From a virus: DNA of 54,993 nucleotides. The first letter of the stretch is position 1. Every line of letters begins with the position of its first letter. Position numbers and translations under genes: made by a program. Shown here piece by piece: positions 1 to 42,600 of this stretch. The notes beneath the pieces are model-generated. The model saw nothing but the letters and a program-made list of their open reading frames with translations, did no database searches and had not been told where the DNA came from. The DNA is taken from IMG/VR virus record IMGVR_UViG_3300010883_000037, positions 1 to 54,993 of that record. One strand, given 5' to 3'.

Positions 1-576
1 ATACTGTAGCTTGTGAATATCGCCCAACATCACAAAATCGTAGCCCTTGAAAAATTCTACATCAACTTCACCTTCGATATCCCAGTTAATATCTGTAGTT
101 GATCCATTTACCCCGCCATGGAAAGTTGCAATATTAATTTCGCCCGGTACAGGTTTAACATTCTCCCATAACTCCTCATCAAAACAAGAAAAGACACACC
201 AATTATATCCCGGTATGCCTGTTGGGTAAGTGCCAGAGTCTTTATACAAAAATAAGTTGTCGTGTGCGAGGGCATTAATAATTGGTGAAATAGCATCTTG
301 ACGATGCTTGTTCATTATTAAGCCATCATGGTTTCCCAGAATGATGTGTGTAGGACAGATGTCTGCCATTTGAGTAAACCACCAACTAAGGCAGTCAATT
401 AACTCTGGCGATATTCCTTGCGTCTTAGAATGAACTATGTCGCCGCCTATAAAAATGGCGTCAGGTTCTAAAGACTTCACCTGCTCAAACATTTGAGTAA
501 ATGATTCTCTATACTCGTCGTGTCTTGTTAAGCCTCTCCAGTGTATATCACTGAGATGCACGCACTTAAAACTCAT
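1..576 (-). CDS. SbcD/Mre11-like (T4 gp47-type) recombination nuclease, 3' part missing
   Basis: The gene begins at ATG 576 and runs off the left edge, so only the first 192 residues are visible. The metallophosphoesterase signature motifs are in order: SDIH (residues 9-12), GGD with a following His (44-49), GNHD (81-84), HGG (153-155) and GDIHK (185-189). These are the metal-binding residues of Mre11/SbcD nucleases. In T4, gp47 pairs with the ATPase gp46 to process DNA ends for recombination-dependent replication, and the same role is inferred here. An AGGAG sequence at 583-587 lies 6 bases upstream and overlaps the stop codon of the primase gene, so the two are probably translationally coupled. 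The gp46/SbcC partner is not in the window and could lie beyond the left edge. A generic phage phosphoesterase is the alternative, but the motif spacing favours SbcD/gp47. Confidence 0.85.
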   Translation of the reverse strand, partial: MSFKCVHLSDIHWRGLTRHDEYRESFTQMFEQVKSLEPDAIFIGGDIVHSKTQGISPELIDCLSWWFTQMADICPTHIILGNHDGLIMNKHRQDAISPIINALAHDNLFLYKDSGTYPTGIPGYNWCVFSCFDEELWENVKPVPGEINIATFHGGVNGSTTDINWDIEGEVDVEFFKGYDFVMLGDIHKLQY

Positions 577-585
577 CCATAACTC

Positions 586-1560
586 CTAGATTACTGTCCC
601 GCTCCGGATGCTAGATATCAAGTTATACAGCCGATCTTCCACAAACCAATTTTGTGCTGAGCTTCTAATGGCTGAGAACTCTTTGAGCGACATGTCGCCG
701 ACATCTTTATTTTCCGGTATCGCTGCCATTCTTACAGAGATTCCGTACGATGATAGCATTTTAGCAATTTCATGAGACTTTTTTTGTGCGTCGGGATCTA
801 ACGCTACAACAGTCGGTGTTTGATTTACAACTATTTTCTTGAATAGCAGCGAGTCTATAGATAAGTGTGACCCCAGCAAACATGTAGAGTTCACATCACA
901 CTTGACTAAGTCAAAAGGGCCCTCAACCAAGGCTAGTTCTTTAGACCAATCAATGTTGATATCATTAAACACAACAGAGACTTTCGGCACACTAGCATTA
1001 ATGTACTTCATTCCGTTCGACTCATCAATTGATCTCCCAGAATAATAATTTAGACTTCCCTCCTCATCAAAAGAAGGAATAATCACTCTGCGACGGAATC
1101 TGCCAGTTGTACAAGTTCCCATACGATAATGCCATAGATCTCTTGCGCCAAGACCTCTCGTCTTGCAATAAGCTAGAGCAGCCCTGATATCAGGGTCACG
1201 TGCTTTCCCGATCATGGGCCCGAGAAGCTTAAACCCAGCGGGTATTTTAATTTTCGCTTCAACTTCAACTTCTTCTACATCATCAGAAAATAGCCTTGCG
1301 GCTTTACCTGTTAACTTCTTAATATCATCTAATCGAGACGGTGCGTATTTCTTATAAAGAGAGGTAAGCGACCGACCCTTAAGACCACACACCCAGCAAT
1401 GAAATCTTCCGTCATCTAAACGAATGACTAGCTTTTTCTTGCCAGAATTTGACTTACCACATTTGGGACACTTCACAGAGGCATTAATTTTATCTCTGCT
1501 TAGTTCGACTGCGCCGAATGTGTGTCTTAGTATTGATACTTTTTCAGATATAGTTGTCAT
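586..1560 (-). CDS. DnaG-type DNA primase (zinc ribbon plus TOPRIM)
   Basis: This 324-residue protein has the layout of a compact phage primase. An N-terminal zinc ribbon has CPKC (31-34) and HCWVC (54-58). A basic region (about 150-176, FRRRVIIPSFD and a GRS motif) matches the RNA-polymerase core of DnaG. A TOPRIM domain has EGPFD (203-207), DPD (245-247) and KDVGD (275-279). It would make RNA primers for lagging-strand synthesis, and its length is close to T4 gp61. I place the start at ATG 1560. The frame can be extended one codon to TTG 1563, but nothing favours it. No Shine-Dalgarno is visible, unlike most genes here. A sigma70-like promoter sits directly upstream, with its predicted transcription start at about the start codon. 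No helicase domain is fused, so a separate helicase must be elsewhere. Confidence 0.88.
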   Translation of the reverse strand: MTTISEKVSILRHTFGAVELSRDKINASVKCPKCGKSNSGKKKLVIRLDDGRFHCWVCGLKGRSLTSLYKKYAPSRLDDIKKLTGKAARLFSDDVEEVEVEAKIKIPAGFKLLGPMIGKARDPDIRAALAYCKTRGLGARDLWHYRMGTCTTGRFRRRVIIPSFDEEGSLNYYSGRSIDESNGMKYINASVPKVSVVFNDINIDWSKELALVEGPFDLVKCDVNSTCLLGSHLSIDSLLFKKIVVNQTPTVVALDPDAQKKSHEIAKMLSSYGISVRMAAIPENKDVGDMSLKEFSAIRSSAQNWFVEDRLYNLISSIRSGTVI

Positions 1561-17334: not shown

Positions 17335-17348
17335 TTCAGCTCACTGAA
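17335..17348 (-). other. Small hairpin over the stop codon of the 596-residue fibre gene
   Basis: On the minus strand TTCAG and CTGAA form a perfect 5-bp stem around a TGAG loop, and the TGA stop lies inside it. It is too short and lacks a U-tract, so it is not a convincing terminator. It could affect coupling to the small downstream gene. Confidence 0.2.
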
Positions 17349-19131: not shown

Positions 19132-19143
19132 CTACCCCTCTTT

Positions 19144-24744: not shown

Positions 24745-24769
24745 TTTGTCTTTCCTCTATAAACTTGTC

Positions 24770-26445
24770 TTAAACCCAACTAAGGGATATAGAACTGATG
24801 CTTCCTGTCCATGTTGCATCAGCTTCAATCATAACTAAAATATACTCATTATTTCTTACTGAATTTGTTCCAAATGTTACTTGATTAGTTGCGTTTAGTG
24901 AAGAATCCAGTGAGCCTACAAGACAGCCATCGCCGTCGGATGTTTGTCCCGTTTGATATGCTGTAGTCATGTCCAACCATCCTGTTTCAAAACTTGCGCT
25001 GCTTAGCGGTAGCTTAAATAATACGTGAATGTTGCCTGTGGACAAATTAGTTGCCCGGGAGGCTATTGTTGTATTGGCTCCGCTTAGTGTAATAGACGCG
25101 TCTGTCTTCGATCCGCCCGTCGTATTTTGAAAGTATCGATAGAAAGTTCTTGTGCCAGATACTGATGAATAATTGACATTATCAACAGGGCTATAAGTTA
25201 TAGAGCCGCCGTCTGATGTGCTTCTGAAGTCACCTGAGTATACACCTTGCTTGGGGGACACTAATGTTTCATTATAGTATATTAAGCCGTTCTCTTGACC
25301 TGTTACTGAGCCTGTTACGTGCTTTGTTGAACTCCACGTGTTATTAGAATCAGAGACACTTACCTGATTACTGTATGTTCCTGATATGACTCTATAGTTT
25401 TCTGCCCTAAACGTTTCAGAAGTAGCGGTCGATGTATTTGATAGATTATAGATCAAAAGACCGGCAATATTTCTAGAACCTGCAGATGATAGGCTTGACT
25501 TGAGTGGGTGACTTATATTAATTGCTGTTGTTATACTACCATTTATTAAAGATGCTGCTGTTACTGTTGCTGTCCCTGTAATGTGCAGTACTTTGGCTTG
25601 ATTTTCAGACGCACCAACATTGATCTGGGGCATGGCCTGTGCCGGCACACTACAGTTTGTTGTTGTAAATGTTATATTATTGGCTGAGTAAACATTTTTG
25701 TATGCATTGTAAACTCTAGCCCTATAGATTGCCGTTGCGCCTGTAAAGTATTTAACCCCCGACAAATAGGCTAAACCCGTAGTAGATACTGTGTCTAGCG
25801 CTTGGCCTTCTAGCGTTAACTCTTGACTATTGGAATCGTTTAACCACTCAACATAGTTTGTAGTTGTATCGGAACCGCTTATGTTGTGAATAACACGTGC
25901 GTAATTCCACCCACTTCTTTGATCAGCTATTCCGATTTGATACTTTCCTGTCCTATGCTGAAACAGGGCTAAAGCAGCAGCATCTTCAAATTTTGATGAG
26001 CCTGTTGCGCTTAGACTCGTAAATCCTGAGCTGTTAGAATTAATAGACGAACCCGATCCACCACCGGGAGTACCTGAGCCTACATGACCCAGGTCGCTTC
26101 CTGTCAACACAACTTCATGTATAACAGATCCATTCACTTCAAGCTTAAGTGATCCTTGGTCTGCATTTCCGAAAGAATTTGCTGGGTAGTTTGTTTGTGA
26201 GTTTGAATGTGTATTAGCAGCTACATCTTCATTCAGCTCGCCATCTATTATAGTAGCGCTATCAAAGACACCCTTTCTAAGATGATTGCCAGAAGAAGCT
26301 GCTGCATATGTCCCATTTACATCAATAGCAGAAAAACCAGCTGCAGTAGATGAGTTTGTATACCCAGAAGCTGCCAGACTACTTCCAAAAGAGAGTTCAG
26401 CTGACACGCCTGAATCATTACAGTCGATATTATCTAGAGCGAGAG
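24770..26445 (-). repeat. Third copy of the ~560-residue fibre C-terminal domain
   Basis: This encodes residues about 826-1383. It begins LALDNIDCNDSG and includes ELNEDVAANT, NYPANSFGN, KLEVNGSVIHE, HRTGKYQIG, NYARVIHN and YVEWLND. Its ending TWTGSISSISLSWV matches TWTGNIDSITVAWL of the 1866-residue fibre. Confidence 0.75.
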
Positions 26446-28921
26446 CAGCACCTAGAGCTAAAGATTTAAGAATTTCGTTGAATCTATCAATTGCTGTGCC
26501 CACCCTGGTTGTTTGAGCAAAGTCTGTAAATAGACCATCATTATAAACGCTGTCTTCTGCCGGCCCGATTTGAACTCCAGTATCTGAAATATCTAAGGTC
26601 ACGAAACCTGACGATCCTGTGGTTATTTTAAGGCTGTTTCCTGCCCTTAAGAAAGCTGTGCCATCAGATAAGTGTGTTAATGACCCACTCAATCCTTTTG
26701 AAAATTTAGTCGCACCGGTAAATGTGGTACCAGAAACAGTAGCAATAATGTTATCATCAATTGTCAACTCTGTTGAGTCTATTTTTAGACCGCCAGAATT
26801 CTTCAAGTCCAATACAAATGATGCACCATCTAGATCTAAGCCATTTCCGGCAGTGTAACTAGTTCCGCCGACGCCGGCTGATGTGGCAATGGTTATCTGC
26901 CCAGTAGTTCCTGACGTTATTGTGACATTGTTTCCCGCAACTAGATAAGACTTACCATCTGTTAGGTGTGTCAAAGACCCAGAAAGACCTGCTGTGTGCT
27001 TGGTCGCGCCGGTGAATGTTGATCCGGATATCATTGCGACTGTGTTATTGTCTACACCCAGAGTGAGAGCTCCTGATGTTCCGCCGCCTACTAAACCTGT
27101 TCCTGCTGTAACGGCTGTAATATCACTGTCTGAGTGTATCGTCACCTGGCCGCTGGTGCCTGTTGTTACAGTTACAGCCCCTGAGCCCTTTATAAACGAA
27201 ATACCAGACGTTAGATTTGTTAGTGACCCAGTAAGTCCTTGATTAAACTGAACACTGCCGGCGAATACCTGTGAGTCTGTTGTAGCACCAACTGAAGCAG
27301 GTGACGTTAATAGAGAGTTTCCGTAAGCTGCTGTAGATGCATTATAATAATATAAAGTGTTCGGTGTTGCTTGATTTGTTACCAGCTGAACATAAGCGCC
27401 TATCACACCCGGAGTGCCTGAAGAGGTCACACCGTTGGTATACTCAGCTCCCGAGTTGTGTGTTCCGTCTGAAGTGGTGCTAAATCTTAAGACTTTCCCT
27501 GAATTAGAAGAAGCACTTACATCAAAGTAATACACACCACTCTTTGAGGCTGAAATTGCTGGGGCAGAAGTTCCGTCCAGTACGAATTTATTTCCTGATG
27601 CAGCTACAACAATATTTGCTCTTAGTGAAAATTGATAGCCTGCAACTGCTAGACCTGCACCTGCTGTGTATGAGTTGTTTATTGATGCGTTTGATGCAAT
27701 AGTTACTTGACCATCAGAAGCAGTAGTTATTGTTATATCACTGCCGCCGGCAATAAATGATTTTCCAGAAGTCAGGGAAGTCATTGATCCCGTTAAGCCT
27801 GCATCAAATTGGACACCGCCTACAAACGTAGACCCGGAAATAGTCGCAATAAAACGATCATCAACGATTAACTTATTAGATAATACTGAAAGTCCTGTCC
27901 CTTGAATGTCGCTTGGGTTAACAACAAGCTGATTATTGGAAATCCCTATTCCTCTGCTTGATGCAATGTTTACCTTAAGTCTATCGCTGCCGTCATCAGC
28001 AAGTCCTAAGCCCGCGATATCTGATGCTTCAAAAGCTAACTGACCGGAGATGATCTGGAGTCCGGCAGACGTTTTAATATCAGCAGAAAATACATTTCCT
28101 GTTAGACTGACTCCGTTGCCAGATGTGTATGTTGTATCTGTGTTTGTATCAGTTGCAGCAATTGTTACAGAGCCAGCTGAGTTTTTTGTTATTTGTACAT
28201 TACTTCCAGCAATAAATGCATCGGATCCATCTGACAGTAGTTGGTGCTTTCCTTTAATTTCGCCTGAAAACGTATTGATTCCTGAAAACGTATTGGTTGA
28301 TGCTAACAACGGAACAGTAGACGTATTGACAGCAACTGTGAATGCATTGCCGACGCCCCCATCGGTGACGCTTATTCCAGGCCCCGCAGTGAATACCCGT
28401 TCATTATTGAGCTCTGAAGTTGCTGCTAGAACTAGATACTGTGGATCTGCAAATGCTGAGCCAGCGCTCTGAACATCTGCAGTAATTGTTATAGCGCCAT
28501 CAGATCCTGTTGTGACAGACATTCTGTCGCCAGCTTTAATATACGAAGTCCCATCTTTCAAGTGGGTATGTGATCCGGAAATATTTGTAGCTGCTATTGT
28601 ACCCACCAAAGATAGCTCTTTAGTTGTTGTATTATAAGATAAACTGCCCTCTGCATCGGCTACAAATATTGGTTTTCCATCGAAATATAACTTTCCAGAC
28701 TTGTTATAGAGGGTGGTGGATGTGTTAGAAGGAGTCTCTGGATTTATTTTAATTCCGCCCTCTACAGTCAGGGCACTTCGTAACCCCTTTGCATCTAGGC
28801 CCACAGACATTGGATTTGGGAAAATAATGCGGTCGACATTTCCGTCTCTGCCCACGCGAATGACCATCCGGTCTTGCTTTTTCAGTTGGCTTAGCGAGAA
28901 TTTTTTAGTTGACTTAGCCAT
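24770..28921 (-). CDS. Tail-fibre-like protein with fibre repeats, cupredoxin-like insert and shared C-terminal domain
   Basis: This is a 1383-residue protein. Its N-terminus (MAKSTKKFSLSQLKKQDR) differs from the other two fibres, so it probably attaches differently. Six ~30-residue fibre repeats lie within 26596-28579. A domain of about 90 residues (about 450-539) with VYYFDV, LRFSTTSDGTH, AEYTNGV and TPGVIGAYVQL resembles a domain I know from marine phage fibres. The connector IGPAEDSVYNDGL and AIDRFNEILK is followed by one copy of the ~560-residue C-terminal domain (about 826-1383), ending TWTGSISSISLSWV. AGGGGA precedes ATG 28921. It lies directly downstream of the giant LamG genes and is likely part of the host-recognition apparatus. 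Confidence 0.75.
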   Translation of the reverse strand: MAKSTKKFSLSQLKKQDRMVIRVGRDGNVDRIIFPNPMSVGLDAKGLRSALTVEGGIKINPETPSNTSTTLYNKSGKLYFDGKPIFVADAEGSLSYNTTTKELSLVGTIAATNISGSHTHLKDGTSYIKAGDRMSVTTGSDGAITITADVQSAGSAFADPQYLVLAATSELNNERVFTAGPGISVTDGGVGNAFTVAVNTSTVPLLASTNTFSGINTFSGEIKGKHQLLSDGSDAFIAGSNVQITKNSAGSVTIAATDTNTDTTYTSGNGVSLTGNVFSADIKTSAGLQIISGQLAFEASDIAGLGLADDGSDRLKVNIASSRGIGISNNQLVVNPSDIQGTGLSVLSNKLIVDDRFIATISGSTFVGGVQFDAGLTGSMTSLTSGKSFIAGGSDITITTASDGQVTIASNASINNSYTAGAGLAVAGYQFSLRANIVVAASGNKFVLDGTSAPAISASKSGVYYFDVSASSNSGKVLRFSTTSDGTHNSGAEYTNGVTSSGTPGVIGAYVQLVTNQATPNTLYYYNASTAAYGNSLLTSPASVGATTDSQVFAGSVQFNQGLTGSLTNLTSGISFIKGSGAVTVTTGTSGQVTIHSDSDITAVTAGTGLVGGGTSGALTLGVDNNTVAMISGSTFTGATKHTAGLSGSLTHLTDGKSYLVAGNNVTITSGTTGQITIATSAGVGGTSYTAGNGLDLDGASFVLDLKNSGGLKIDSTELTIDDNIIATVSGTTFTGATKFSKGLSGSLTHLSDGTAFLRAGNSLKITTGSSGFVTLDISDTGVQIGPAEDSVYNDGLFTDFAQTTRVGTAIDRFNEILKSLALGAALALDNIDCNDSGVSAELSFGSSLAASGYTNSSTAAGFSAIDVNGTYAAASSGNHLRKGVFDSATIIDGELNEDVAANTHSNSQTNYPANSFGNADQGSLKLEVNGSVIHEVVLTGSDLGHVGSGTPGGGSGSSINSNSSGFTSLSATGSSKFEDAAALALFQHRTGKYQIGIADQRSGWNYARVIHNISGSDTTTNYVEWLNDSNSQELTLEGQALDTVSTTGLAYLSGVKYFTGATAIYRARVYNAYKNVYSANNITFTTTNCSVPAQAMPQINVGASENQAKVLHITGTATVTAASLINGSITTAINISHPLKSSLSSAGSRNIAGLLIYNLSNTSTATSETFRAENYRVISGTYSNQVSVSDSNNTWSSTKHVTGSVTGQENGLIYYNETLVSPKQGVYSGDFRSTSDGGSITYSPVDNVNYSSVSGTRTFYRYFQNTTGGSKTDASITLSGANTTIASRATNLSTGNIHVLFKLPLSSASFETGWLDMTTAYQTGQTSDGDGCLVGSLDSSLNATNQVTFGTNSVRNNEYILVMIEADATWTGSISSISLSWV
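26596..28579 (-). repeat. Six fibre repeats (~30 residues) in the 1383-residue fibre
   Basis: The units begin GSHTHLKDG, GKHQLLSDG, GSMTSLTSG, GSLTNLTSG, GSLTHLTDG and GSLTHLSDG. The second and fourth are the most divergent. The cupredoxin-like domain is inserted between the third and fourth. Confidence 0.72.
27305..27570 (-). other. Cupredoxin-like domain, metal ligands apparently lost
   Basis: The segment encodes VYYFDV, LRFSTTSDGTH, AEYTNGV, TPGVIGAYVQL and LYYYNASTAAYGN. Related marine phage domains, as I recall them, end YYC..H..MG, the Cys-His-Met ligand pattern of blue-copper proteins. Here those positions read Asn, Thr and Tyr. The domain boundary is approximate. Confidence 0.5.
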
Positions 28922-28934
28922 CTACTTTTATCCC

Positions 28935-31900
28935 CTAATCTAGACCAATGTCGATTGCTATGCTAACCTTTTCTGCTGTATCAGGCTGTTGACTTATTCT
29001 ATCAAGAGCATGCCCATCTCTGTAGGGCATTGATGAAGAGCAAAAGATATCTAAGTTTGCGCTGTTAGTAGACATAGGATCAGTTGCCCGGGCTCCGTTT
29101 GAGCCTCGCTCAACAAACGAAACAGATACTACTCCTTCTTCCAGACCGTCTTCTGTAAAGAATCTCGTAAAATTACGTTGCTCAAGCATGTCTCTAATGT
29201 GTCCAAAGTTATCTCTTCGGTAAACAGCAGACGAAAACTTAGGCAGAACATTGGCCAGCCCATACCGGAAGCCTCTTATTATGACCCCCTTGGTCACTAC
29301 AAAAGTATCATCTGCTCCGTAGCCTACTTCATTCATTCCGGTTGATTTCCAGAAGGGAAGCTTGGGAAATTTATAGCTTCCGTCTCCGGAGCCAAATAGC
29401 ACCTTTGCGAAGAAATTGGCATTATCTTCGAATAATGATCCGTACACTGGATTATTGTAACCACCAAACTGAATTTCCGCTAAGTGTTCACCTGTCTTTC
29501 CATGACCGTGATCATTTGTTATAATTGCATATGAGGAAAAGTTAGGGTCAGGAAGACCATCAGAACCTGCCTGATTTGCAGCATCTTTAAGGAGACCAGG
29601 GTGGTCAATAATATTGAGCATATCTGTAGAAATTGTACTAATATTTGGTGTGACAGAACCAAACGTTGCTGCAGGACCCCCAAGACCGGGAACAGTTATA
29701 CTTCCTGTAATATTGGCGAGCCACACATGTACCAGCTGCTTTGTTCCAGTGTCTACAGAACCAGATGCACTTGGGGCAAATACGTCCTTTGTTTTAAGGC
29801 CTGCTGTTCTTGTGGCAGAGCTATAACGAGGTTCGAATGGAAATGCGCCAAACCAAGCTGACCAAACTTGATCATTAGGGCTAATATCAGTATTACTTCC
29901 TGTGGCGACTTTCGGATGACCAAGGACTAATGCTGCGCCCCTTGTGTTTGTAATGTTCCCGTGAGTACCAAAAGATGGGCTGAACAGTCTTTTTTGATCA
30001 ATTTTCAAAAGATCAGAAATATCTGGTAGCATTGAATCGTACCAACGCTCTCTAGAATCAGCCACTCTTACGCCCCTTAAGAAACCGGATCTCTTTTGAT
30101 AGATTCGCGCTGTGTTGCTCTTGGGCCCTAATGCATGGTTTCCAGATGAGTGCCGGCTTACAACTTTTCTGTGAGATGAAATATGAGCTAAAGTTCCAAA
30201 TGTATCTTTAGAAATACCTCGAAGCATTGCGCCTGTTACATGATTATCTAGATAGGTTCCGCTGTGAAACATCGGTGGGTCTGTGTCGTATTGATCGAAG
30301 ACTTCAGCACCAAAGTGTAGGGCCTCGTGGATCGAGTTACTAGTCAGGGGTTGATTTGAAGTATTAACAAATTCTTCTTTTTCATCCCGAAGCACTGATC
30401 CATACAAGACGATCTTTCCAACGCCCTTGTGTATTTCAAATGTCCCACTGGGCTCTGTAATTGCATGGTGAACCATAGAACCGGTTCCGATGGGTGTTTG
30501 CCAACCGAAGACTAGTTTATCTCCTGGCATGATAAGATAAGGTGAAACCAAACTATCTTCTGCAGATTGTGATACCACATACGTCTGTGTGTTGTTGTTA
30601 ACAGAGTATGATAGATCGAATGCTCCATACTCACCACCGAAGGGAGCTCGACCGCTCATAAGTCCTGTTCCGCTACGCCCTCCGCCCCATGACAAGACTA
30701 TATCATCATTAAGATTGTCTCCACCAGAAAAGTTTGTACAAGACCAGCTATTATTGGATCCATCTCCGCCTCCAGCGGGTAATCCATTATAGTTTACCCT
30801 TGTTGTTGTATTCCCTTCAATTCCGCCACGTTTCTGTGACATTGTAAATGACAAAGCGTTAGTAGAGCCAGTTGTGCCCAAAGAGATGCCTGACGTAAAG
30901 TTGCCCGCCGGTGTGGATGCTTCCCCTCTAGCAGCTCTTGCAATTGTTTCATACAACATAGAAGTTATAGTTTTTAGATCATCTGTTGTCGAGAGGCCCC
31001 CTATATTAATAGTCCACTGACTGATGTTTGTATTCCACTTGATTGGTCCATCAGCGGCGCTGTTGAAGGCATACGCGGAGCCCTCTGTTCCCGTTAGCAT
31101 GTTTATCGCATCGAATCTAAATGTTACTGAGTCTTGTGTAGTATCTGTTATTGTAAGGGTCTGGCCGGCGTATGGTAAGCTGCTTGTAAAGGCCAACACA
31201 CAGCCGGCCTGAGTATTGCCAAAGAAGTCTCCTTCTGCTTTGAAGGTTGTTATAGAAGGGTTGACTTTGGGAGATCTTACGGGCATTGCCAGCGACATTC
31301 TGCGTCGTTTAGACCCTGCGTGCAAGGGTTCTATAGCAAAATTTCCCTGCCTAGACTCATGAGGCACTATAACTGTGTCAAGTCTTGCCCTTGGGTCAGG
31401 TACGTAAGATTCAAAATCCTGTTCATCGAATCCTGAAGTAAAAACACCGTATCTTCCAAACGTCACCAAGTCTCTAATAGTATCAATATACTGAGGCTCA
31501 TCTGTTTTAGCTGGGGGCGCTAGATAAAATTTAGACGGAATTGATGCTGTATAGTGAAAGTCTTGAGGTCTTTTGGCACCATCGACTACAGTGATAACAT
31601 CAACTTTATTTGAAATTGCATCCGGAAGGCATGCCGTTCTCTGATTAAGCATGAAGAAGGTCGGTGTGGGTGAGTTAATATACGCATGTTGGTTATAACC
31701 CCCGGCTGATCCATAGCTTCCAGTACCTACTGAGCCACTGCCCCCTGTCCGAATATCTATAGAAGACGACTGGTGGACTGAGGCTTCAAATTCATATACT
31801 ATTTTTTCTAGAAGAAACGGTCTGTCAATATAGTCTGATGCATTTAGATACTGGGACGATGTCGCATGAAATTTTGCATGAAACGGAAATCCAAATGTAG

Positions 31901-34900
31901 ATACTGGGGTTGAAATGCCTCCGTCAACAAAGACATATTTTCCCTGATTGTTTGCATTGGGCGCCTGAGCACCTGCCACCGATCCCTCTGATTTTGCCAC
32001 CATCATTCCAATAGATGGGCTAAACCCTATGTAAGTTTTGTCTAGCCATTGTCTAAATCCAGAGTATGATGCAGGTTCCCCGTCGATGGATGATGCGCTT
32101 ACAGAATAAACAGAAGCTTGAACAAGAGAAGATGAAAGATGTGACCAAGATGGATCATATCCAACTGTTACAGCTGCGTTGTCAACAATTGGTCTTGCAC
32201 CTTGTGGCTGCCAATATGAACCTGTGCCCGGAAAACCAATTGGCTCCCAGGCCTTCTTTTCAAAGTTGAAGTAGGCCATTGAAGAGCCGGTGACAATATG
32301 ACCATGAAGAGTTGTACTTTTCTTTGGCGCAATATCAATTTCTATTTTTCTCTTGGACCATAAAGGGCCATGGAGGCCAAGACCGACAAGTGATGGAAGT
32401 GTGCCTGTGGAGTAAAACTCTTGATCTTTTTCTGTATCTGTAGTGAAAAAGTCATCGGAGTCAGCATGCATTTCTGACCCAAAGGCTGCATACCTATAAG
32501 ATTCATCAAATGGGGAGATGCTCTCATCTTTCCAGTAGTGCTTAATTGGTTCTGTAAGAATATTCTTATGGGCTGATCCTGATACTAACATATCTGGGAC
32601 AGCATTGGGGGTCGGTTGTGAGGACCTTATAGTTCGGTGACCAGGCTCGAGGCGATAAGGAAAAACCACCTTGGGAGACGCTGTTCCTCCTATAAATTTT
32701 CCTGGAATTATCGCCCTTATTTTTCTTCTTAACTTAGGCCTGGCATTTTTTCGACTATTTTTAATGAGCGTGTTACCCTCAGTACCTGCCTTTGTCTGCT
32801 TAAGCAACACTGCTTCTTTCTTATTGCTGATATCTGCTTTAATTCCAAAGCCGGAGCAGCTATTTATAACAGCTACTAGAGTCTTAGCAACTTGTGCAGG
32901 TGTCCTGTCATTATGGATAGCTACTTCAATATTCCCCTTTGATACTATTGTCCCATAATTGAACTCGAACCGCTTTGTTCGGCCGGCCCAGTCTACTAAT
33001 TGAATCCATGTGCCGTCTCGGGGTCTTCCCTTGAATAGGATCTCTGCTTTTGCGTAAGGGTCATGAAAAATTTGTTCATTTGAAGCATCATAAAAAAGAT
33101 TGTATCTTCCTGTAAAGTCGCTATCACCGAATCGACTAATTGTCGGATACTGATGATTTAGTGCATCATGCTCACGAATTGTCACACGAGGAGGATGCGA
33201 CATAAAACCAGATTTGGGTGTGAATGTTCCGTCTTTAGCACCGTATAGCGCGTTGATTTCCTCGTCAGTTAGGCATCTTCCCCAGAAGGCAATGTCATCA
33301 AAGGCAGCACGAGGTGATCGGCCAGCTAGATGGTGTGTAAAATTAGTTAAAGTGGACCCGGCTGGATAGTCAAATCCATAAGGGTATGACTTTTTAGCGA
33401 AGTAGTTAAGAAGCTGTGGGGGTGTTCCCAAATACATTGCGTCAACAGGAACAAGCGGTCCACGAGGAGCCTGGAATGTCCTGAAGCCTCCGGAGAAGGC
33501 ATCGGTTGAAGGGAAGTATCCTCCTGATGCAGCACTACTATTAGTTTGTAGCCACGATGATAGTGTTACTGCTTTATACGCACTGTCAACGGCTTCTATC
33601 TTTGCTGCTGTTGTTGTAATACCTGGGACTGCTTGTTCTAGTGTTACTGTGCTACCCAGAGATGACGACGGGAGTGCTTTAACACCTATGGTTCCCGTAA
33701 TGTACATCATATTGATAACTTCAGCTGTTCTTGCAGCAACCTTATTGATAACAGCAGCAGTAGAAGACCCAGAGGTGATGCCGGAGATATCACCGATTGG
33801 TATTGTTCTACCTGCTAAGTCTGCCCAGCCCAAAACAGACCAACCAGTGGATCCGGTAGTCGGCGAACCAAATTTACTATTTTGGATTGGTGAAGTTATG
33901 GGAATTGGAGCTGCGATATTAGCAGATGAAACGGTGAGGATATTAGCAGAACTGTCGTCGCCAGTCGATTGACTTCCGCTTATGTTAGAATAGTCTAGAC
34001 CCCACTTGATAGCAGCTCGGTAGTCGTCTATGCTAGAAACCCCTTTAACACCCAGGCGCCAATGAGTTTCGTTTCCTGATAATCCAAAGTTTTCTATACG
34101 AACAGAAGAATGAGGATGTAAGCCGTATTGCAAGCTTATGCTGTCATCAGTATTTCCTTGTGCTGTGCTGGAAGCGGTTAGCATCAAGCCAGCTGAGGTT
34201 GTTGAATTAATTCTTCCAATCGGGCTTTTGAGAGTTAATGTCACTATATTATTGTCTGTATCTTGGGTGCCTATTATCTCCGATCCGTGACCATTCGTCC
34301 CAGTGATTGAAGTAATAAGATTTGCCCAAGTTCCATCAATATCATTGGCAATGGGAACGTCTACAACACCTGAGGTGTTCTGAAAATAATTAGCAGTTAC
34401 ACCCTGGAGTGTGATATCACATAGTGCCCATTGATCATAGTTCCAGCCCGAATAGCCTCGCTGAATGATTCTGACATAGTATCCGGATTGATAACCACCG
34501 GCGGGGCCGCCATTACCGCCCAACAGACCTGCATTAATTTTAGCCCAATTACAGTAAAATGAATAGTGACGCCACTTCTGTTCATCATGTCTATCGTATA
34601 CAGGGCCTCCGCTAGTTTCAACGGATTGAGGCCCTGTTCCGGAAACATAATGTTTTATGCCGTGTGTCCTATTTGTCCCTGCGAGAAGGGTTGTGACAGA
34701 TGCTCCGGAGTAACCTTGCACACTATATTCTGGGCTGTACCAGGTTATTACCGGTGGGGACGCATTGTCCGGGATTCCGATCTGGACGTGTATCCCTTCA
34801 TCGGTATCTGGTCTTTCACGCATGCTGCTATGAATTGTTTGTTGTGCTTCTCCACTCTGGGATCCCGGCCAGGCCTTGAATTGAACCCAACAATCAGACG

Positions 34901-37900
34901 TAAATTTCTCTGTGCACTGAATATAGCGTTCACTTCCAAATCTAACCGCCCAGGCGGCGTTGGTGGATGGCTCCGATGGAGTGGCGAACAAAAGAATCGG
35001 TTGTGCCTGGGGTATTGTTCCCATAGCAGCGCCCTTATTATAGTATCCACCGGTCCTGGGGTCGAGCATGCCGGTTTCATAAGTACCTGTCATGATACGA
35101 TTCATATCAGATCGAACAAAGCTATAAGCCGGCTGCGCTGTTAAAGCGGCACCAACATTAGTTTGAGTGCCTATCTTAAAGTAATTTGACAAGCTAGAAG
35201 TAGAATGTAGTGCAGTTAATACTGATTTTTGGGCGCTGCTTTTCGAAAGCGCGCGAGTTGCGGTTGCAAACTCAGGCTGAAGACCTCCTGAAAAATCTTC
35301 GTGGGTTGTCGCGTCGCCGCCGCTGCCGCCTATTACAACGGCAGTGTTTCCCAGCTTCGCTGCCGAAGCGCCGGCGCCACCATGTCCTATATTGACTTGA
35401 GTTAACCCGATTGTGTCAGCATCATTTCGAGTTGAATTAATCATCAAGTCGCCATTATACCTTGCTAACAATATTGCTTCATGAAGAAGCAACGTAAGGC
35501 TTGCTGCGCTTTTGACTCCGGAGACATCAACTGTATAGGCAGATGAAGTGGAGTTCGCGGCGGCTTTTGAAACTCCGCCGGATGATCCATATGTGGTAAA
35601 GTCAGTTGAATCCACCGGGGATGTGAATGTTGTGCCGTCGTAGGGCGTTGTGTATAGACCGAAAGTTGTTGCTGAAATCACATCTATATAATATTTTTTA
35701 TTATTGAGCTCAGTCATGCCGACAACATCTGTAATCCAAATTTGATGCCCATCGGACAGGCCATGGTTTTCAGCGGTTGTAACAACTGCCGGGGAGGCCT
35801 TTGTGATTCCTGAGATATTTCCGTACCCGGTGCTGTCGCCCACGAGGGCTGTGTACGTGAAGATCACAGTTCCGGAGACGATTTGAGCATTATCTATCAA
35901 TGTAAGAGTGTGATTCGCTAGCTGGGCCGCTGTGCGATTATTACAGTCTATAGTCGTAGAAGCTTTTGCCCCAGAGAACCTGTAAGTCTTTGTTGTTAGG
36001 TTCGGTGTAGTAATTCTTAAGAATTGACCGGGCTCAGGGTTGGACCCTGTGTTAGAGAATAAGCCTCCGTATCTAATGTGAACTCTTGCTAAGTCATCAT
36101 AATTTGGACTAACTTTCTGGACTCGATTTTCTGATCCGTCTTCGAATATAGCCGATCCTACATTTGTAGACCCTGAGTGCACTGTATCCACTAAGAAATT
36201 TGCTGTTGCGTCGCCCTGACCATACGGCCAAGGGCCGGTCTGACCCGGAACATTAACAGACCATGTTGCCAGGTGATTGGCAAGAGTAGCTGCTGTAGAA
36301 TAAGCACCTGATACCACAGAGATAGATGCTGTTGGCACCAACCCAGCAATATTTTGTCTCCATGGAGGACTACTGGTCGTATCATATCTTATATAGACAT
36401 GTCGCAATGATCCTGTGGCTTGAGCAACCGCATGCAGTGCATATCCTGTATCAGGACTCGTCTTGAACGTTACATGGCCTTTTGAAGGCTCAGCCCTTGG
36501 GATCTTTCTAAGATCTTGCCGGCGGCCGTTGATAAACATCTTTGGAGCAATCGGTGATGACTCGTCTTTCAAGTCAGAAGAATGTAAACCATATTCATTT
36601 ATATTAGATCCAGTAGGATAAACAACAGCAACGTGGGTCCACACATCTTCTGGGAGAGGCTTTGATGTTCTCCACTCACTTTGCTCTGTCACTGCAGAGG
36701 ATCCTGAATAATGTGTTGATAGCCAGGAAAGTGTATTATGCTTATCAGTGCCTGGTTTAGATAACACTCGGAGCGATAGGCCTGTTGCGTCCTCTCCGCC
36801 GCCGCGTACGTGTGTGCCGTCTGTTTTGTCTACAGCACCTCCCCCGATATAATCGTGTGGATCAGAATAGGCGCCGGTGAGGGCTGTAAAGATCGACTTG
36901 GCAATAAACTTGTTCTTAACAACGCTCTTACCGCCTCGAATATCGCCGGCGCCTCCTTCGAGTGGGCCGATATTCATTGAAGCAGTAGTAATTGTGATCA
37001 AAGCACCTGCAGCGCCAACTGGTTTCACAGTTGTTATTTTGCCATTGTTTATAGATGTTCCGGTCGAGGTAAAATTAAATACCTCAGAAACTGCTGTAGC
37101 AGACAATGTTACAACAGCATCTGTAACTGTTGCGTCATGGAAGGGCATCGAGTGGAGGATGGATTTAATTTCGGCTGCGATATCATTAACAGACTTGGAC
37201 CCAAGGTGTATCGTCGCAGTTTGAGCGCCATCAGAGAAGGGGTAGAGCCCACTATCCGAGGCCCACTTAGTATCACTAGTTCCGCCTGCAGAAGTAAATG
37301 TTATAGTAAATGTCTGCGATTCTTCATAATGATTCTTTGTTGTTACGATTAATGTCTCTGCCCACGCGGGTACTGAAACTACAGTTAGAGTTTGTGATGA
37401 AAGCTTATAGTTTGACAGGGCAGACAAGTCTTCGGTATCAAAAAAGTTTGATCCGCCTGAAGCTCTGTAACCCTCTTCATGAAAAGCTGTTCCCGCCGGT
37501 GTGGTATTTCCATCGTCACCTCCGAGAGTTTGCTTCAAACCAACTCTCCCCCAGTTGACTGACAACTCATTTCCACTATAATACTTTTGGCCGGACGAGT
37601 CTGTGTTGGCTTTACCCTTATCTACACCCGTTGTCTTTAATTTACCGGCCCACCTATGTGATCTGCCACCTGTAAAGGCAACAGCCCCGGAGGAGGCTGA
37701 TCCGGTGGCACTGTTATATTGTGTTCCTGGGATTTCTGTGTGATGATCATCGCGGTGACCGGCGCCCTTGACTTCAATTGCAGAGCCTGAGTCGCCGGCG
37801 ATAGTGATTGTCGTATTACCCAATGGGCCTGATCTGTATTGGGTCAGATCTATTGAAGGTGTGGCAGCTTCAAAATTCTGCACAATAAAATTAATTGCGC

Positions 37901-39620
37901 TGTTACTGTCCGCGGTGTTCTGTGTGACTGCCCACGAGGCTCTCGTCGCTGTGGTTGCATTGGCCGCAGCCCCGTCCGGGCCTAACCACGATATGTTTCT
38001 TCGACCGGTAGGACCATACGAGTTGCCCTGTGTTTCCCAGCTGAAATACTGTGAGATGGTACTGGCAGAGATATCGACACCGTTAATACCACCGGTGGTG
38101 TATACCAGCTTATAAAAAGCATAGTAGAGATAGTTTGCTATTCTGTAATCGTAATGGGAGTCTGTTAGATATCCATTAGAGTCATCGTAAGAGACATCTA
38201 GATTGAGCTGGACTGTATTTGAACCCAGACTTCCTGCGGTGGGATCAGTCATTCCGGCGCGCCACTGTGTCTCAGTAACGTTGCCGAAAGATGGTTTATC
38301 TGACAGCTGTGTACCTGCAAGTGATGTGGCACCATCATTCTTAAAATATAGTATTAGATTGTATGTGTTGTTGCCCTGTGTCAGAACTATTGTATATTTT
38401 GCCCCGTCTGACGGAAGTTTCCCCTTGTTGGTTGTGCCGCCATCCGCCTCTCCTGTGCCGATGATAATCCTTAATCCGGATCTGATCGACGGCGCCAAAC
38501 TATGCGGAAACACACCATGACCGCTGCTATTGGCGATACAGGATCTGAGGCTGTCTAGTGCCGCTTGAATATCAGCTGCTGTTGTTGAACCCGCGTTGAC
38601 CACAGCAAACTGGTTACTAGCGAGAGTTTCTGAGGCTTTGGCAGTATATACGACTGATTTGCCTCGGTGGGATATCAATGTTATCGTTGAGTTTAGCGCA
38701 GGAACTTTTCTAAAAGTTATTCGAGCCCTGGCTTGACCACCACCACCTTGATCTGCTAATACAACCTTGATATACTCAGTGTCGTTGTATGTGTAAGACG
38801 GTTTGATGTTTAGATCGCCGTTCCCGTAAGCAAGATTAATCGCACTATAGACCGCTGATGCTACATCTGCGCCCTGAACATAGCTTGAGTAACTACCCAG
38901 ACCTACTGTATAGCTTGTGGGACTATTTCTAACATTTCCGCCGCTATACTCGTCGTAAGTAAACGTTACAATATTACCAGCTGTATCTCTTAAGATAATA
39001 GTTTCGGCATGCAGGTGTGATCTGTGATCAGTTGCAAGATATATGTAACCAGAGGCTTTTGCCTGCACGTCGATTGAGTAAGATCCGGTAACTGGGTGCA
39101 TCTTTACCCAGCCGGCGAAGGTCATTCCTGATTCGTATGTTTCTCTATGCGGGAACGGACGCCCAGGAATACTAGATAAGTCTCGAGCTAACTGTCGAGG
39201 TAGTTCAATTCTTTCAGATGATCCTGAGCCAAAGTCTACACACCTTAATTGATTAGAATCTTTTGGTGATACCGCAAGTATACTAACAGCACCGCCCAAA
39301 ACATCTTCCGACTTAAGCGGATTATTAAACGAATAGGGCGACGTGATCGCGGTTCTGGTAGGTGTAGGCTTCCCTTCTAAAAGACGCTCTTGATAATCGG
39401 GCATCGATCCTGATGACACTAAGCCATAATATCCGTGCCCGGAGGAGTCTTCGACCCTTAAGCTATGTGATTGACTTAAGTTAACTTCATAGGGCTCTTC
39501 AAATCTGTAGAACGCTAGCAGCGACCCAGAATGATGCTGATATAAACTTCCTCCCGCCATAAATGACGATGTCAGATTAAGCTCTGATTTGTTATTTCTT
39601 CCTCTTCTAAAAGTAGGCAT
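28935..39620 (-). CDS. Giant multidomain virion adhesin (3561 residues) with dispersed LamG segments
   Basis: This is the largest gene in the window at 10.7 kb. LamG-type segments are seen at FAGWVKMHP (168-176), LSLRVLSKPG (about 947-957), WTHVAVVYP with MFINGRRQDL (about 991-1035) and DDIAFWGRCLTDEEINALYG (about 2107-2127). Between them lie repeated beta modules, an FCCH-like domain (about 1267-1341) and a reelin-like motif (about 1713-1737). The C-terminal ~250 residues include GFRYGLANVLPKFSSAVYRR, RDMLEQRNF and a TNSANLDIFCSSSMPY run, which I associate with the ends of giant tail proteins in marine phages. The ATG overlaps the upstream TAA by one base. GGAGG lies 12 bases before it, which is longer than usual spacing. 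It is probably a peripheral baseplate or host-contact protein. Confidence 0.72.
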   Translation of the reverse strand: MPTFRRGRNNKSELNLTSSFMAGGSLYQHHSGSLLAFYRFEEPYEVNLSQSHSLRVEDSSGHGYYGLVSSGSMPDYQERLLEGKPTPTRTAITSPYSFNNPLKSEDVLGGAVSILAVSPKDSNQLRCVDFGSGSSERIELPRQLARDLSSIPGRPFPHRETYESGMTFAGWVKMHPVTGSYSIDVQAKASGYIYLATDHRSHLHAETIILRDTAGNIVTFTYDEYSGGNVRNSPTSYTVGLGSYSSYVQGADVASAVYSAINLAYGNGDLNIKPSYTYNDTEYIKVVLADQGGGGQARARITFRKVPALNSTITLISHRGKSVVYTAKASETLASNQFAVVNAGSTTAADIQAALDSLRSCIANSSGHGVFPHSLAPSIRSGLRIIIGTGEADGGTTNKGKLPSDGAKYTIVLTQGNNTYNLILYFKNDGATSLAGTQLSDKPSFGNVTETQWRAGMTDPTAGSLGSNTVQLNLDVSYDDSNGYLTDSHYDYRIANYLYYAFYKLVYTTGGINGVDISASTISQYFSWETQGNSYGPTGRRNISWLGPDGAAANATTATRASWAVTQNTADSNSAINFIVQNFEAATPSIDLTQYRSGPLGNTTITIAGDSGSAIEVKGAGHRDDHHTEIPGTQYNSATGSASSGAVAFTGGRSHRWAGKLKTTGVDKGKANTDSSGQKYYSGNELSVNWGRVGLKQTLGGDDGNTTPAGTAFHEEGYRASGGSNFFDTEDLSALSNYKLSSQTLTVVSVPAWAETLIVTTKNHYEESQTFTITFTSAGGTSDTKWASDSGLYPFSDGAQTATIHLGSKSVNDIAAEIKSILHSMPFHDATVTDAVVTLSATAVSEVFNFTSTGTSINNGKITTVKPVGAAGALITITTASMNIGPLEGGAGDIRGGKSVVKNKFIAKSIFTALTGAYSDPHDYIGGGAVDKTDGTHVRGGGEDATGLSLRVLSKPGTDKHNTLSWLSTHYSGSSAVTEQSEWRTSKPLPEDVWTHVAVVYPTGSNINEYGLHSSDLKDESSPIAPKMFINGRRQDLRKIPRAEPSKGHVTFKTSPDTGYALHAVAQATGSLRHVYIRYDTTSSPPWRQNIAGLVPTASISVVSGAYSTAATLANHLATWSVNVPGQTGPWPYGQGDATANFLVDTVHSGSTNVGSAIFEDGSENRVQKVSPNYDDLARVHIRYGGLFSNTGSNPEPGQFLRITTPNLTTKTYRFSGAKASTTIDCNNRTAAQLANHTLTLIDNAQIVSGTVIFTYTALVGDSTGYGNISGITKASPAVVTTAENHGLSDGHQIWITDVVGMTELNNKKYYIDVISATTFGLYTTPYDGTTFTSPVDSTDFTTYGSSGGVSKAAANSTSSAYTVDVSGVKSAASLTLLLHEAILLARYNGDLMINSTRNDADTIGLTQVNIGHGGAGASAAKLGNTAVVIGGSGGDATTHEDFSGGLQPEFATATRALSKSSAQKSVLTALHSTSSLSNYFKIGTQTNVGAALTAQPAYSFVRSDMNRIMTGTYETGMLDPRTGGYYNKGAAMGTIPQAQPILLFATPSEPSTNAAWAVRFGSERYIQCTEKFTSDCWVQFKAWPGSQSGEAQQTIHSSMRERPDTDEGIHVQIGIPDNASPPVITWYSPEYSVQGYSGASVTTLLAGTNRTHGIKHYVSGTGPQSVETSGGPVYDRHDEQKWRHYSFYCNWAKINAGLLGGNGGPAGGYQSGYYVRIIQRGYSGWNYDQWALCDITLQGVTANYFQNTSGVVDVPIANDIDGTWANLITSITGTNGHGSEIIGTQDTDNNIVTLTLKSPIGRINSTTSAGLMLTASSTAQGNTDDSISLQYGLHPHSSVRIENFGLSGNETHWRLGVKGVSSIDDYRAAIKWGLDYSNISGSQSTGDDSSANILTVSSANIAAPIPITSPIQNSKFGSPTTGSTGWSVLGWADLAGRTIPIGDISGITSGSSTAAVINKVAARTAEVINMMYITGTIGVKALPSSSLGSTVTLEQAVPGITTTAAKIEAVDSAYKAVTLSSWLQTNSSAASGGYFPSTDAFSGGFRTFQAPRGPLVPVDAMYLGTPPQLLNYFAKKSYPYGFDYPAGSTLTNFTHHLAGRSPRAAFDDIAFWGRCLTDEEINALYGAKDGTFTPKSGFMSHPPRVTIREHDALNHQYPTISRFGDSDFTGRYNLFYDASNEQIFHDPYAKAEILFKGRPRDGTWIQLVDWAGRTKRFEFNYGTIVSKGNIEVAIHNDRTPAQVAKTLVAVINSCSGFGIKADISNKKEAVLLKQTKAGTEGNTLIKNSRKNARPKLRRKIRAIIPGKFIGGTASPKVVFPYRLEPGHRTIRSSQPTPNAVPDMLVSGSAHKNILTEPIKHYWKDESISPFDESYRYAAFGSEMHADSDDFFTTDTEKDQEFYSTGTLPSLVGLGLHGPLWSKRKIEIDIAPKKSTTLHGHIVTGSSMAYFNFEKKAWEPIGFPGTGSYWQPQGARPIVDNAAVTVGYDPSWSHLSSSLVQASVYSVSASSIDGEPASYSGFRQWLDKTYIGFSPSIGMMVAKSEGSVAGAQAPNANNQGKYVFVDGGISTPVSTFGFPFHAKFHATSSQYLNASDYIDRPFLLEKIVYEFEASVHQSSSIDIRTGGSGSVGTGSYGSAGGYNQHAYINSPTPTFFMLNQRTACLPDAISNKVDVITVVDGAKRPQDFHYTASIPSKFYLAPPAKTDEPQYIDTIRDLVTFGRYGVFTSGFDEQDFESYVPDPRARLDTVIVPHESRQGNFAIEPLHAGSKRRRMSLAMPVRSPKVNPSITTFKAEGDFFGNTQAGCVLAFTSSLPYAGQTLTITDTTQDSVTFRFDAINMLTGTEGSAYAFNSAADGPIKWNTNISQWTINIGGLSTTDDLKTITSMLYETIARAARGEASTPAGNFTSGISLGTTGSTNALSFTMSQKRGGIEGNTTTRVNYNGLPAGGGDGSNNSWSCTNFSGGDNLNDDIVLSWGGGRSGTGLMSGRAPFGGEYGAFDLSYSVNNNTQTYVVSQSAEDSLVSPYLIMPGDKLVFGWQTPIGTGSMVHHAITEPSGTFEIHKGVGKIVLYGSVLRDEKEEFVNTSNQPLTSNSIHEALHFGAEVFDQYDTDPPMFHSGTYLDNHVTGAMLRGISKDTFGTLAHISSHRKVVSRHSSGNHALGPKSNTARIYQKRSGFLRGVRVADSRERWYDSMLPDISDLLKIDQKRLFSPSFGTHGNITNTRGAALVLGHPKVATGSNTDISPNDQVWSAWFGAFPFEPRYSSATRTAGLKTKDVFAPSASGSVDTGTKQLVHVWLANITGSITVPGLGGPAATFGSVTPNISTISTDMLNIIDHPGLLKDAANQAGSDGLPDPNFSSYAIITNDHGHGKTGEHLAEIQFGGYNNPVYGSLFEDNANFFAKVLFGSGDGSYKFPKLPFWKSTGMNEVGYGADDTFVVTKGVIIRGFRYGLANVLPKFSSAVYRRDNFGHIRDMLEQRNFTRFFTEDGLEEGVVSVSFVERGSNGARATDPMSTNSANLDIFCSSSMPYRDGHALDRISQQPDTAEKVSIAIDIGLD
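30805..31165 (-). other. Recurring beta module near the C-terminal part of the giant protein
   Basis: The module starts QTLTITDTTQDSVTFRFDA, passes GLSTTDDLKTITSMLYETIA and ends MSQKRGGIEGNTTT. It shares the outline 'ligand-like TDxxxxxVxFxF, then a helix with AI/ET, then GxEGNTxx' with 32765-33020 in this gene and 41280-41580 in the next. Confidence 0.5.
32765..33020 (-). other. Recurring beta module in the middle of the giant protein
   Basis: It reads TWIQLVDWAGRTKRFEFNYG, then TPAQVAKTLVAVINSCSGF, then LLKQTKAGTEGNTLI. The strand-helix-strand order and terminal GTEGNT match the other modules of this type. A Lys/Arg-rich linker follows. Confidence 0.5.
34411..34482 (-). other. Reelin-like motif in the 3561-residue protein
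   Basis: It encodes YYVRIIQRGYSGWNYDQWAL followed by CDI. This aligns with RWIQKKYSG...DHWALADV of the 1074-residue protein and RFIQKKFSM...DNWALSEL of the 1791-residue protein. Confidence 0.5.
35600..35822 (-). other. FCCH-like beta-barrel domain in the giant protein
   Basis: It encodes ISGITKASPAVVTTAENHGL, then GHQIWITDVVGMTELN, then YYIDVISATTFGLY. The pattern 'ITxAxPAVVTTxxxHGLxxGxxVxIxxVxGMxELN' is that of the FCCH-type domains (named after part of ubiquitin-activating enzyme E1) that are common in phage structural proteins. Confidence 0.65.
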
Positions 39621-42600
39621 TACTTTTTCAAACCTCCAAACGCCAACGAATCTGTACCAACGTCAATATTATTATTGTACTCGTAACCAGCTGTCGCGGA
39701 AACATGATCTCTAGAAAGAAGATCTTGTGCAGAAACATTTGATTTCATAAGCGCAGCAACTAACGGTTTAGAGGACAGCATATCCGGATCTTGTATTAGC
39801 GACATCTCATAAATAGCCTTTACTGAAGTTGAGTCGAGTAATCCTTGATAAAAGGCGACCTCAGAAAGAGGATTCTCTACAAAGATACTCGGCATATACG
39901 AGCTCCACGCAGAATAAGATGACAAACCTGCGATTTCTATTTTATGTTTGCTTTGTTGTGTATTTTTGCCCATAGCTTGGTATCTAGATCCTGCGCCAGA
40001 AGTTCCAGCGCTATAATGACTTATAGCATTACTATTATCGGCTGCGTAAGTACTAGAAACATCTTCCCCATCGATATACATCTTGAAGTGCTCATGCGGA
40101 CTGCCATCGACTGTCACAGGGTCGACGTTGATATAATAATTAGTACTCTGATCATAATATACCCCAGCTTGTCCTGTGAAGTTGGTCGTCGTAAAATAAT
40201 CATTACTAATATTGTCTGATATCCATGCCCATCTTGGCGGTCCCGCGTATTGCTGAACTAACAATATAGGGCCGGCCCCTCCGGTAACAAGTGTCTCCGG
40301 CGAAGCGGCATATCCTGTGTTGGTGGTTGTGTCGCCTTCATCGCCGACGGCATCGCCGGCAAATTGTAGTTCGTGTGGGCTACTGCCAAAATTGATGATA
40401 TTACTACCCCCACTATTAGCAAAATAAGACCCAGACGCAGCCGTGTACGTGTACGCGTGCACGTTGAGCGTTTTGTCTCTCCAAGAGTACTCGTCGGTGT
40501 CAAGAACATCGCCGTCTTGGTTGAGGTCATGTTGATTATGGGGTGTGACGTTGTTGATTGTTGACGCTATTCTTTGTTTGATGACATCTATTGTAGCTAC
40601 ATTAGAGAGGTCGGCACCGTCGGCGGCTCCGCCGACTTTGTCACTGTACTGAATCCCTACATTAATGTAGAGAAATTGGCCGGCGCAGAATCTGCCGTCT
40701 GTATATGAGTTATCATTCTTGAATTTGAAGTAAACGTAGTTCCCTGCAACATCTGTGATAACAAAGTATTTGTCGTCAAGTGATGTTAGATTATTAGTCT
40801 TGATTTCAATCTTTCCCACACCTTTTTTCTTAGGAATGTTTTCATTGTGTGTTAACGTAGAATCGATGTCTCCATCGTACGACACTGTCCAGTGATGCCA
40901 TTTGCCATCGGTCATGGCGTTTACCATCTTGACATTGCCATAACCATTACCTGAGTTATGTCCGTAAAATCTTCTGAACAAGAAACTATAATTGGTTGGG
41001 TAGCTATCGTTGTCAAACAGGTAAAAGTATATGTACTGGTATGAATACGTGTCATAGTCATATCCTGTGAATCTTATGTTCCAGTTTCTGGACCCGTAGT
41101 TTGAAGCACCATTAACATCTCCGGCGTCATATGACTGTGCCAAGTAGAAGTTTCTATCTCCATCGCCCTTCATCCAGAAGCTTAGGGTAAATGCGCTGTC
41201 TCTATGACCTATTGAGCCTGTTGCAAACTTGGTAGCTGCTATACCTCCGCCTCCTTCGTGCCCGCTGGTGAGAGTGCCCAATGACTCCGATATTGAAGCA
41301 GTCGCCGCCATGACTGAGCCCTCAATATGACTTACCAATCTCACTGTATCTTGTGCTGCGCTGCTTAAGGAAGATAGCGATCCAGAGAGCGCGCCTATTT
41401 TCAGTGTGCTGTCATTAACTGCCTTCGCTATGGCTGCTGCGCGTTGTGAAGTGGTTGAAAGCCCGCTAGTATTAATTGCAGTTTTTCCGGCGGCGACGCC
41501 GTTATCTGAAGGATCAAACTCAAATATCACAGAGGTTGAATCAGAGTCTGTTAATGTGAATGTATGACCGTCAGAAGGCGTTCCTGTTACTCTTAAATAG
41601 TGTTCTGGAAGTTTATCTCTATTACCTGAATATCTTCGATCAGGCCCTAATGTTATAACAGACGGGAATGTCATACCTGTGGCAGCATTAACTTTTACAG
41701 AGCCCGCGCCTTGTGAACCGATAAATGGGCTTTCTCCATCGTATGCAAACGATCCTTGAGTCACAGCATTGACTGAAGTATTGGATCTCTTTGTTACTGT
41801 AGACGATCCCATAAACGAATGATGAGATACTAAGTTAGACATAGCTGTATCTGCTGTTGTGAAATAAGCAGGCGACAATTCAGCGTGCCCTTTTCCTACA
41901 GTTCCAGAGGTTGCTATGCCGGCGGTGTTTTGATAAATTGATGCAGATGAAGTGACGGCGGAGTAAAGTGTTGTATTAACTGACTTGAATGTGGCATTAA
42001 GCGTCGTCGTATACGATTCATCTGAAGCAGCGAAAAGATCCGCTGCATCATTGATACCCCTTACCCTTAGTATGGTATCAGATGCGTCATCGAAAGCCCC
42101 TACAGTAGCATTAGAGGGTCCCACAAAGCCTTGCATTTGTATGGGCGCGATATGTGACTTACCGTATGTACCCGATATACCCATTGCGACCCAATCTTCA
42201 TATGCCTCGACGGGTACTTTGTCGCCTGTCTCAGAGTCAACGACAACTTCTAGAACTCTTTTCTTTACACGATCTGCATTGTCTAAAATATCTAAACCAA
42301 AGACTTCAACACCATCAAAGTAAGAGTCGTTACCTTTGATCAAATGACGGCGTCGCTGTCTCAGAAATCCTTTGCCTCCAGCAAAATTATATGTACCTAC
42401 TCCATTGACTAACTCATTACCCGGGGTCGCGTCGGTGCCTGAAGCTTGATTGATTGTTATATCATCACCTCGTTTTCCAGAAATATCCGCTGTTAGACGT
42501 ATTCTAAAAAACTTTGCTTCATAACCACCCAATGTACCGGTGATTACTCCGCCCAAGGCTTTGGCACTCACACCAAAGTTTGATGTTGTGTCCGTGCCTC

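Follow-up and report, generated by a model that had tools for sequence, protein, structure and literature searches.

A LamG-type jelly roll probably split by two giant in-frame insertions in a tail-region protein of an uncultivated virus

Do LamG-like motifs that lie hundreds of residues apart in a giant viral protein belong to several domains, or to a single one opened by insertions? The question is raised by a protein of 3,561 amino acids, P in the following (Table 1). The analysed window is the whole IMG/VR record of an uncultivated virus, 54,993 bases with nearly all genes on the minus strand. Two baseplate wedge genes near P show that it covers the tail/baseplate region of the virus, most likely one with a contractile tail. 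The nearest named phages for the wedge protein were one Microcystis and one Flavobacterium phage with ~32 % identity. Three consecutive proteins of 596, 1,866 and 1,383 aa (17341-28921, minus strand) have a common recurring motif of the type GSLTxLSDGxSYLxAGxNVTITSxSNGQVTI, recognized by eye.

Table 1 Features of P, in order of residues, and baseplate wedge genes; positions refer to the window
Feature	Residues of P	Positions	Strand	Content or evidence
Split-LamG gene, N-terminal LamG and conserved C-terminal core		28935-39620	-	ORF, 3,561 aa
LamG piece 1	1-176	39093-39620	-	N-terminal arm, strands LLAFYRFEEP 34-43, QLRCVDFGSGSSERIELP 124-141, FAGWVKMHP 168-176
Insert 1	~177-903	36912-39092	-	In hairpin after FAGWVKMHP; no LamG signal
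Beta module copy, insert 1	203-295	38736-39014	-	Module profile E 2.4e-6
Beta module copy, insert 1	299-369	38514-38726	-	Module profile E 2.3e-12
Beta module copy, insert 1	518-616	37773-38069	-	Module profile E 2.1e-7
LamG piece 2	~904-1041	36498-36911	-	SIFTAL, GLSLRVL, LSWLSTHY, WTHVAVVY, MFINGRRQDL
Insert 2	~1042-2054	33459-36497	-	After MFING strand; 4.9 bits with LamG profile
96-residue segment, insert 2	1259-1354	35559-35846	-	Lacking in L110; P 1258/1355 corresponds to L110 999/1005
Beta module, larger part, insert 2	~1352-1446	35283-35567	-	Module profile positions 30-110, 31 bits
LamG piece 3	~2055-2127	33240-33458	-	VDAMYLGTPP and DDIAFWGRCLTDEEINALYG
Conserved C-terminal core	2135-3561	28938-33218	-	Common also to relatives without LamG
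Two beta module copies, core	2192-2293 and 2810-2967		-	Module profile
Baseplate wedge gene 1		51267-53114		PHROGs 'baseplate wedge subunit'
Baseplate wedge gene 2		53120-53602		PHROGs 'baseplate wedge subunit'

The initial annotation had read FAGWVKMHP, GLSLRVLSKPG (947-957), WTHVAVVYP (994-1002), MFINGRRQDL (1028-1037) and the motif of piece 3 (2108-2127) as strands of one LamG domain separated by two large insertions. All these motifs are present in P. It had further stated that no other strong candidates for the missing strands lie beside the pieces; such strands were nevertheless found adjoining them when P was read by eye against the relatives L017 and L110, namely the two upstream strands of piece 1, AKSIFTALT (~907-915) and VDAMYLGTPP (2059-2068). 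The two insertions thus stand, whereas their sizes, previously given as ~770 and ~1,070 residues, are revised to ~727 (177-903) and ~1,013 residues (1042-2054), with borders uncertain by a few residues at either end. The end of insert 1 was set at a strand, residues 906-914, in a model of P 1-1045.

A LamG profile built only from the domains of unsplit relatives matched P with 26.6 bits in three ordered, non-overlapping pieces: residues 8-182 (profile positions 5-131), 975-1043 (166-221) and 2104-2131 (251-278). Among 538 shuffled versions of P the maximum score was 9.3 bits, reached in the 283 shuffles of 8-mer blocks; the best of the 255 residue shuffles had 3.8 bits. Single pieces scored 14.4, 11.7 and 20.9 bits, the inserts alone -4.4 (insert 1) and 4.9 bits (insert 2). 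All parts of the LamG domain occur in the correct order: the collinear pieces cover both ends and the middle of the profile, and the gaps between them are filled by the strands named from the comparison to L017 and L110. Direct scans of P with Pfam, PHROGs and NCBIfam did not reveal LamG. PF13385 gave one sub-threshold piece (36606-36734, PF13385 positions 55-91) with 18.4 bits versus a cut-off of 27.6, as expected for an interrupted domain, and the only family above its cut-off in the Pfam protein scan was an FCCH-type domain at 1276-1345. Homology points to one interrupted LamG-type fold, a reading that stays short of a Pfam-level call.

Searches of IMG/VR with P as query yielded no match, and with an alignment of P and L110 only the contig of L110 itself. 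Relatives were gathered via the baseplate wedge protein (75 loci) and the gene following it (80 loci), and the blocks of P behind the LamG were common to 70 proteins in these loci. Thirty-one relatives with the same core carry a single uninterrupted N-terminal LamG of about 250-320 residues, the core starting at residue 232-321; some further relatives lack the LamG, and their core starts at residue 2-17, e.g., in the 914-aa protein of L049. PF13385 was matched at E <= 0.01 by all 21 contiguous relatives tested (21/21; best E 1.8e-23). In L017, the closest unsplit relative, the LamG is a separate gene of 442 aa with the same order of parts packed into 424 residues. Its residues 1-124, 260-283 and 371-424 align to P 1-134, 978-1000 and 2107-2160, with E-values of 1e-7 for piece 1, 0.13 for the middle part, which is weak alone, and 3e-16 for piece 3 (46 % identity). 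L110, an independent contig of a sister phage with 57 % overall identity, has the three LamG pieces as in P with another spacing, thus the split layout is not an artefact of a single contig.

Intermediate forms were present in the pairs L112/L008 and L113/L010. As in P, their LamG stands ahead of the same core and is split in two loops by the ~110-residue module that also occurs in P; they differ from P in shorter inserts and in the position of the first one, which follows the first strand instead of the FAGWVK strand used in P and L110. The second insert follows the 'YVNG/YING' strand in the intermediates and the 'FING' strand in P and L110, hence the loop after the NG strand was used in both lineages. 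The border between LamG and core shifts from residue 371 in L017 over ~604 in L112/L008, ~734 in L113 and ~1820 in L110 to ~2105 in P. Since relatives hold the same fold in one piece, a comparison of related genomes shows the steps of this expansion directly.

Some gene arrangements in this group deserve mention. At L115:2079-7563 (minus strand), equivalent to L017:18012-21840 (plus strand), one gene codes for the LamG head (442 aa) and the next, one base away, for the core (1,384 aa); in the window both are joined in a single gene, a fission or fusion at the border of LamG and core. In L112 a stop separates the head (844 aa) from the core (1,882 aa). The 1,791-aa protein next to P (39620-44995, minus strand) has a LamG of its own (residues 1256-1379 and 1627-1732), in which an interruption of ~247 residues separates WHHWTVSYDG from FKMYIDG and lies just before the 'YIDG' strand.

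Structure prediction had been named in the initial annotation as the way to check the assembly of the segments; it gave one jelly roll for the L008 protein, and for P a low-confidence model with LamG-type matches spanning pieces 1 and 2. The AlphaFold2 model of the N-terminal 660 aa of L008 forms a single jelly roll across both inserts. Residues 64-626 of the model were matched by single jelly-roll domains with Z 12.6 and 172 aligned residues (rmsd 3.8); carbohydrate-binding modules of family 40 reached Z about 11.7. Block means of pLDDT were about 56-91 at the LamG strands 281-360 and around 390-400, and pLDDT was 82-86 in the strand after the second insert (601-620); the N-terminal part of the model is unreliable, as most other rows of the alignment had their first strand at residue 85, not 42. 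The model of P 1-1045 had a mean pLDDT of 38 and a pTM of 0.33, with the highest values at the LamG strands 166-174, 945-1001 and 1025-1040. Its best structural match was the LamG domain G2 of agrin (Z 7.7, 98 aligned, range 40..1037), followed by LamG-type domains of pentraxin, PAPP-A, Gas6, perlecan and SHBG with Z <8. With Foldseek alone, this model had no match at E <0.001. The alignment was chosen to place the two key tryptophans of the unsplit relatives on W171 and W994 as invariant columns, while other row sets, for which MAFFT moved the first key strand to residue 545, 786 or 994, were discarded; the model is therefore not independent of the homology argument, and it supports the assembly without proving it because its input already bridged the gap. 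Clostridial toxin binding domains among the PDB matches have the jelly-roll fold in common, nothing more.

Taken as a whole, the N-terminus of P is very probably one LamG-type jelly roll with strands from residues ~34-176, ~904-1041 and ~2055-2127 and with two in-frame loop insertions. The one-domain proposal of the initial annotation gained support in that each segment supplies a complementary part of the profile, relatives hold the three parts contiguously and the L112/L008 and L113/L010 forms are intermediates. If instead three separate LamG-like domains were present, each complete and too diverged to be seen fully, every segment should lie within a contiguous domain of its own. No such domains were found, and hardly any of the profile is matched by the inserts. 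Partly hidden beta sandwiches are possible, and a very weak extra signal of the LamG profile exists in insert 2 (1510-1592); at 4.9 bits, it was not accepted as a second LamG. The pieces represent different profile parts without repeats, the stretch from N-terminus to core holds a single LamG in the relatives and never three, and in L110 the three pieces recur at other distances, which makes three domains very improbable.

A LamG broken by the insertions could also have left pieces that are remnants and no longer form the fold, and the low confidence of the P 1-1045 model would agree with this. The pieces are, however, far better conserved than the inserts. Between P and L110 the identities were 60, 58 and 71 % for pieces 1, 2 and 3, in contrast to 35 % for insert 1 and 43 % for insert 2, with 73 % in the core; dN of the LamG pieces was 0.24-0.38 with dS near saturation. 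Such conservation between two phages with nearly saturated silent sites indicates that the LamG pieces are maintained, and all key LamG strands are kept in both proteins, so decay to remnants is highly unlikely. Removal of the inserts after transcription or translation, as introns or inteins, would restore a plain LamG and explain long inserts at constant sites. Positive evidence for such a process was not found: no Rfam family lies over the P gene, a Pfam scan to E 10 revealed no intein or Hint family, the frame is open across >1,700 insert codons and the modules of the inserts occur outside LamG, too. We regard splicing as scarcely conceivable here and retain a single LamG fold with two insertions.

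The initial annotation had the spaces between the pieces filled by beta modules. The inserts are indeed partly made of a module of ~110 residues, and other beta domains are also present. The module was first seen as the insert of L112 and L113 and then made into a profile, which found ~80 occurrences in the fetched proteins. P has three copies in insert 1, one in insert 2 and two in the core, and the neighbouring 1,791-aa protein has two (150-260 and 1135-1244). Compared with Pfam the module belongs to no accepted family (DUF7496 with E 0.0095 was below the cut-off), and it had no match in phage records. A stretch of insert 2 resembles a reelin-type region of a 1,074-aa protein with E 2e-6 over 25 residues. 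Weak matches to reelin subrepeat B were observed at 2166-5390 (E 0.003) and 39620-44995 (E 0.0015), both on the minus strand, and their motif Y-x-R-x-I-Q-K...W-A-L recurs in insert 2 at ~1715-1739. DNA repeats at the insertion borders were not found.

Insert 2 itself seems to be interrupted. The FCCH-type domain PF16190 at 1276-1345 (35586-35795, minus strand) scored 36.1 bits versus a cut-off of 29.5. L110 is without the FCCH segment at the site of P 1259-1354 and its surrounding beta module is whole there, so the segment was probably inserted within the module. The comparison with L110 suggests a third level of nesting, FCCH inside the module of insert 2. In P, the part of the module that precedes FCCH was not securely recognized on its own by the module profile. 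FCCH-type domains are of the type found in eukaryotic E1 enzymes, and the region in P also resembles a part of pelagiphage tail tubular proteins. An assignment of P as ubiquitin-activating enzyme E1 (TIGR01408) was rejected with 18.1 bits versus a cut-off of 750, as P has only the small FCCH-like part in common with it.

With the Laminin_G_3/concanavalin A-like lectin domain (PF13385) the head of P shares the profile of the unsplit relatives, the strand order and, in the modelled L008, the jelly roll, but it is interrupted twice. Inserted domains have a median length of 115 residues, their hosts one of 199 residues (PMC13114784). The SI3 insertion in the beta' subunit of RNA polymerase, with 284 aa in E. 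coli and 640-690 aa in cyanobacteria, resembles P as a large multi-domain in-frame block in a conserved fold with graded expansion among relatives and with nesting (PMC13114784). Host fold and function of SI3 are different, and P has two affected loops, larger blocks and a place in a viral tail-region protein. A description of a split LamG of this kind in phages was not found in the open-access literature. Large nested insertions are thus already known, while the size of the inserts in P, the reuse of a loop and the graded series look new.

We propose that in-frame insertion placed ~727 residues in the hairpin behind FAGWVKMHP and ~1,013 residues in the loop behind the MFING strand. Both blocks would be partly built of the ~110-residue module that is scattered over the tail proteins of this virus group, together with other beta domains. 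The jelly roll most likely closes over the two blocks, which would project as appendages and add reach or extra binding faces; the three-piece assembly within P itself we infer. The conserved core is linked to the baseplate and can occur with or without the N-terminal LamG head, so the LamG of P is probably located on the tail periphery, in contact with the host surface. Folds of the LamG type typically bind glycans. For P, fold family and the place of the optional head beside baseplate genes suggest that host-surface glycans may be bound. At about even chances, the LamG of this virus group would be a growing platform, into whose loops the mobile module and other domains were inserted repeatedly, in at least two lineages and in part inside one another (FCCH in beta module in LamG), so that an adhesin head grew from ~300 to ~2,100 residues by accretion, not by tandem addition.

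Domain insertion is common, but as a rule the host is larger than what is inserted. In P, two loops of a ~300-residue fold seem to accommodate ~1,740 extra residues, which spreads the strands of the fold over almost 2,100 residues. Such domains escape standard domain annotation, as P has no Pfam LamG above the cut-off. The relatives present a graded series from no LamG over a plain LamG and one or two modules to giant inserts, which makes it possible to test the folding of a jelly roll whose strands are separated by ~1,000 residues, and the ways in which host-contact proteins grow in phages.
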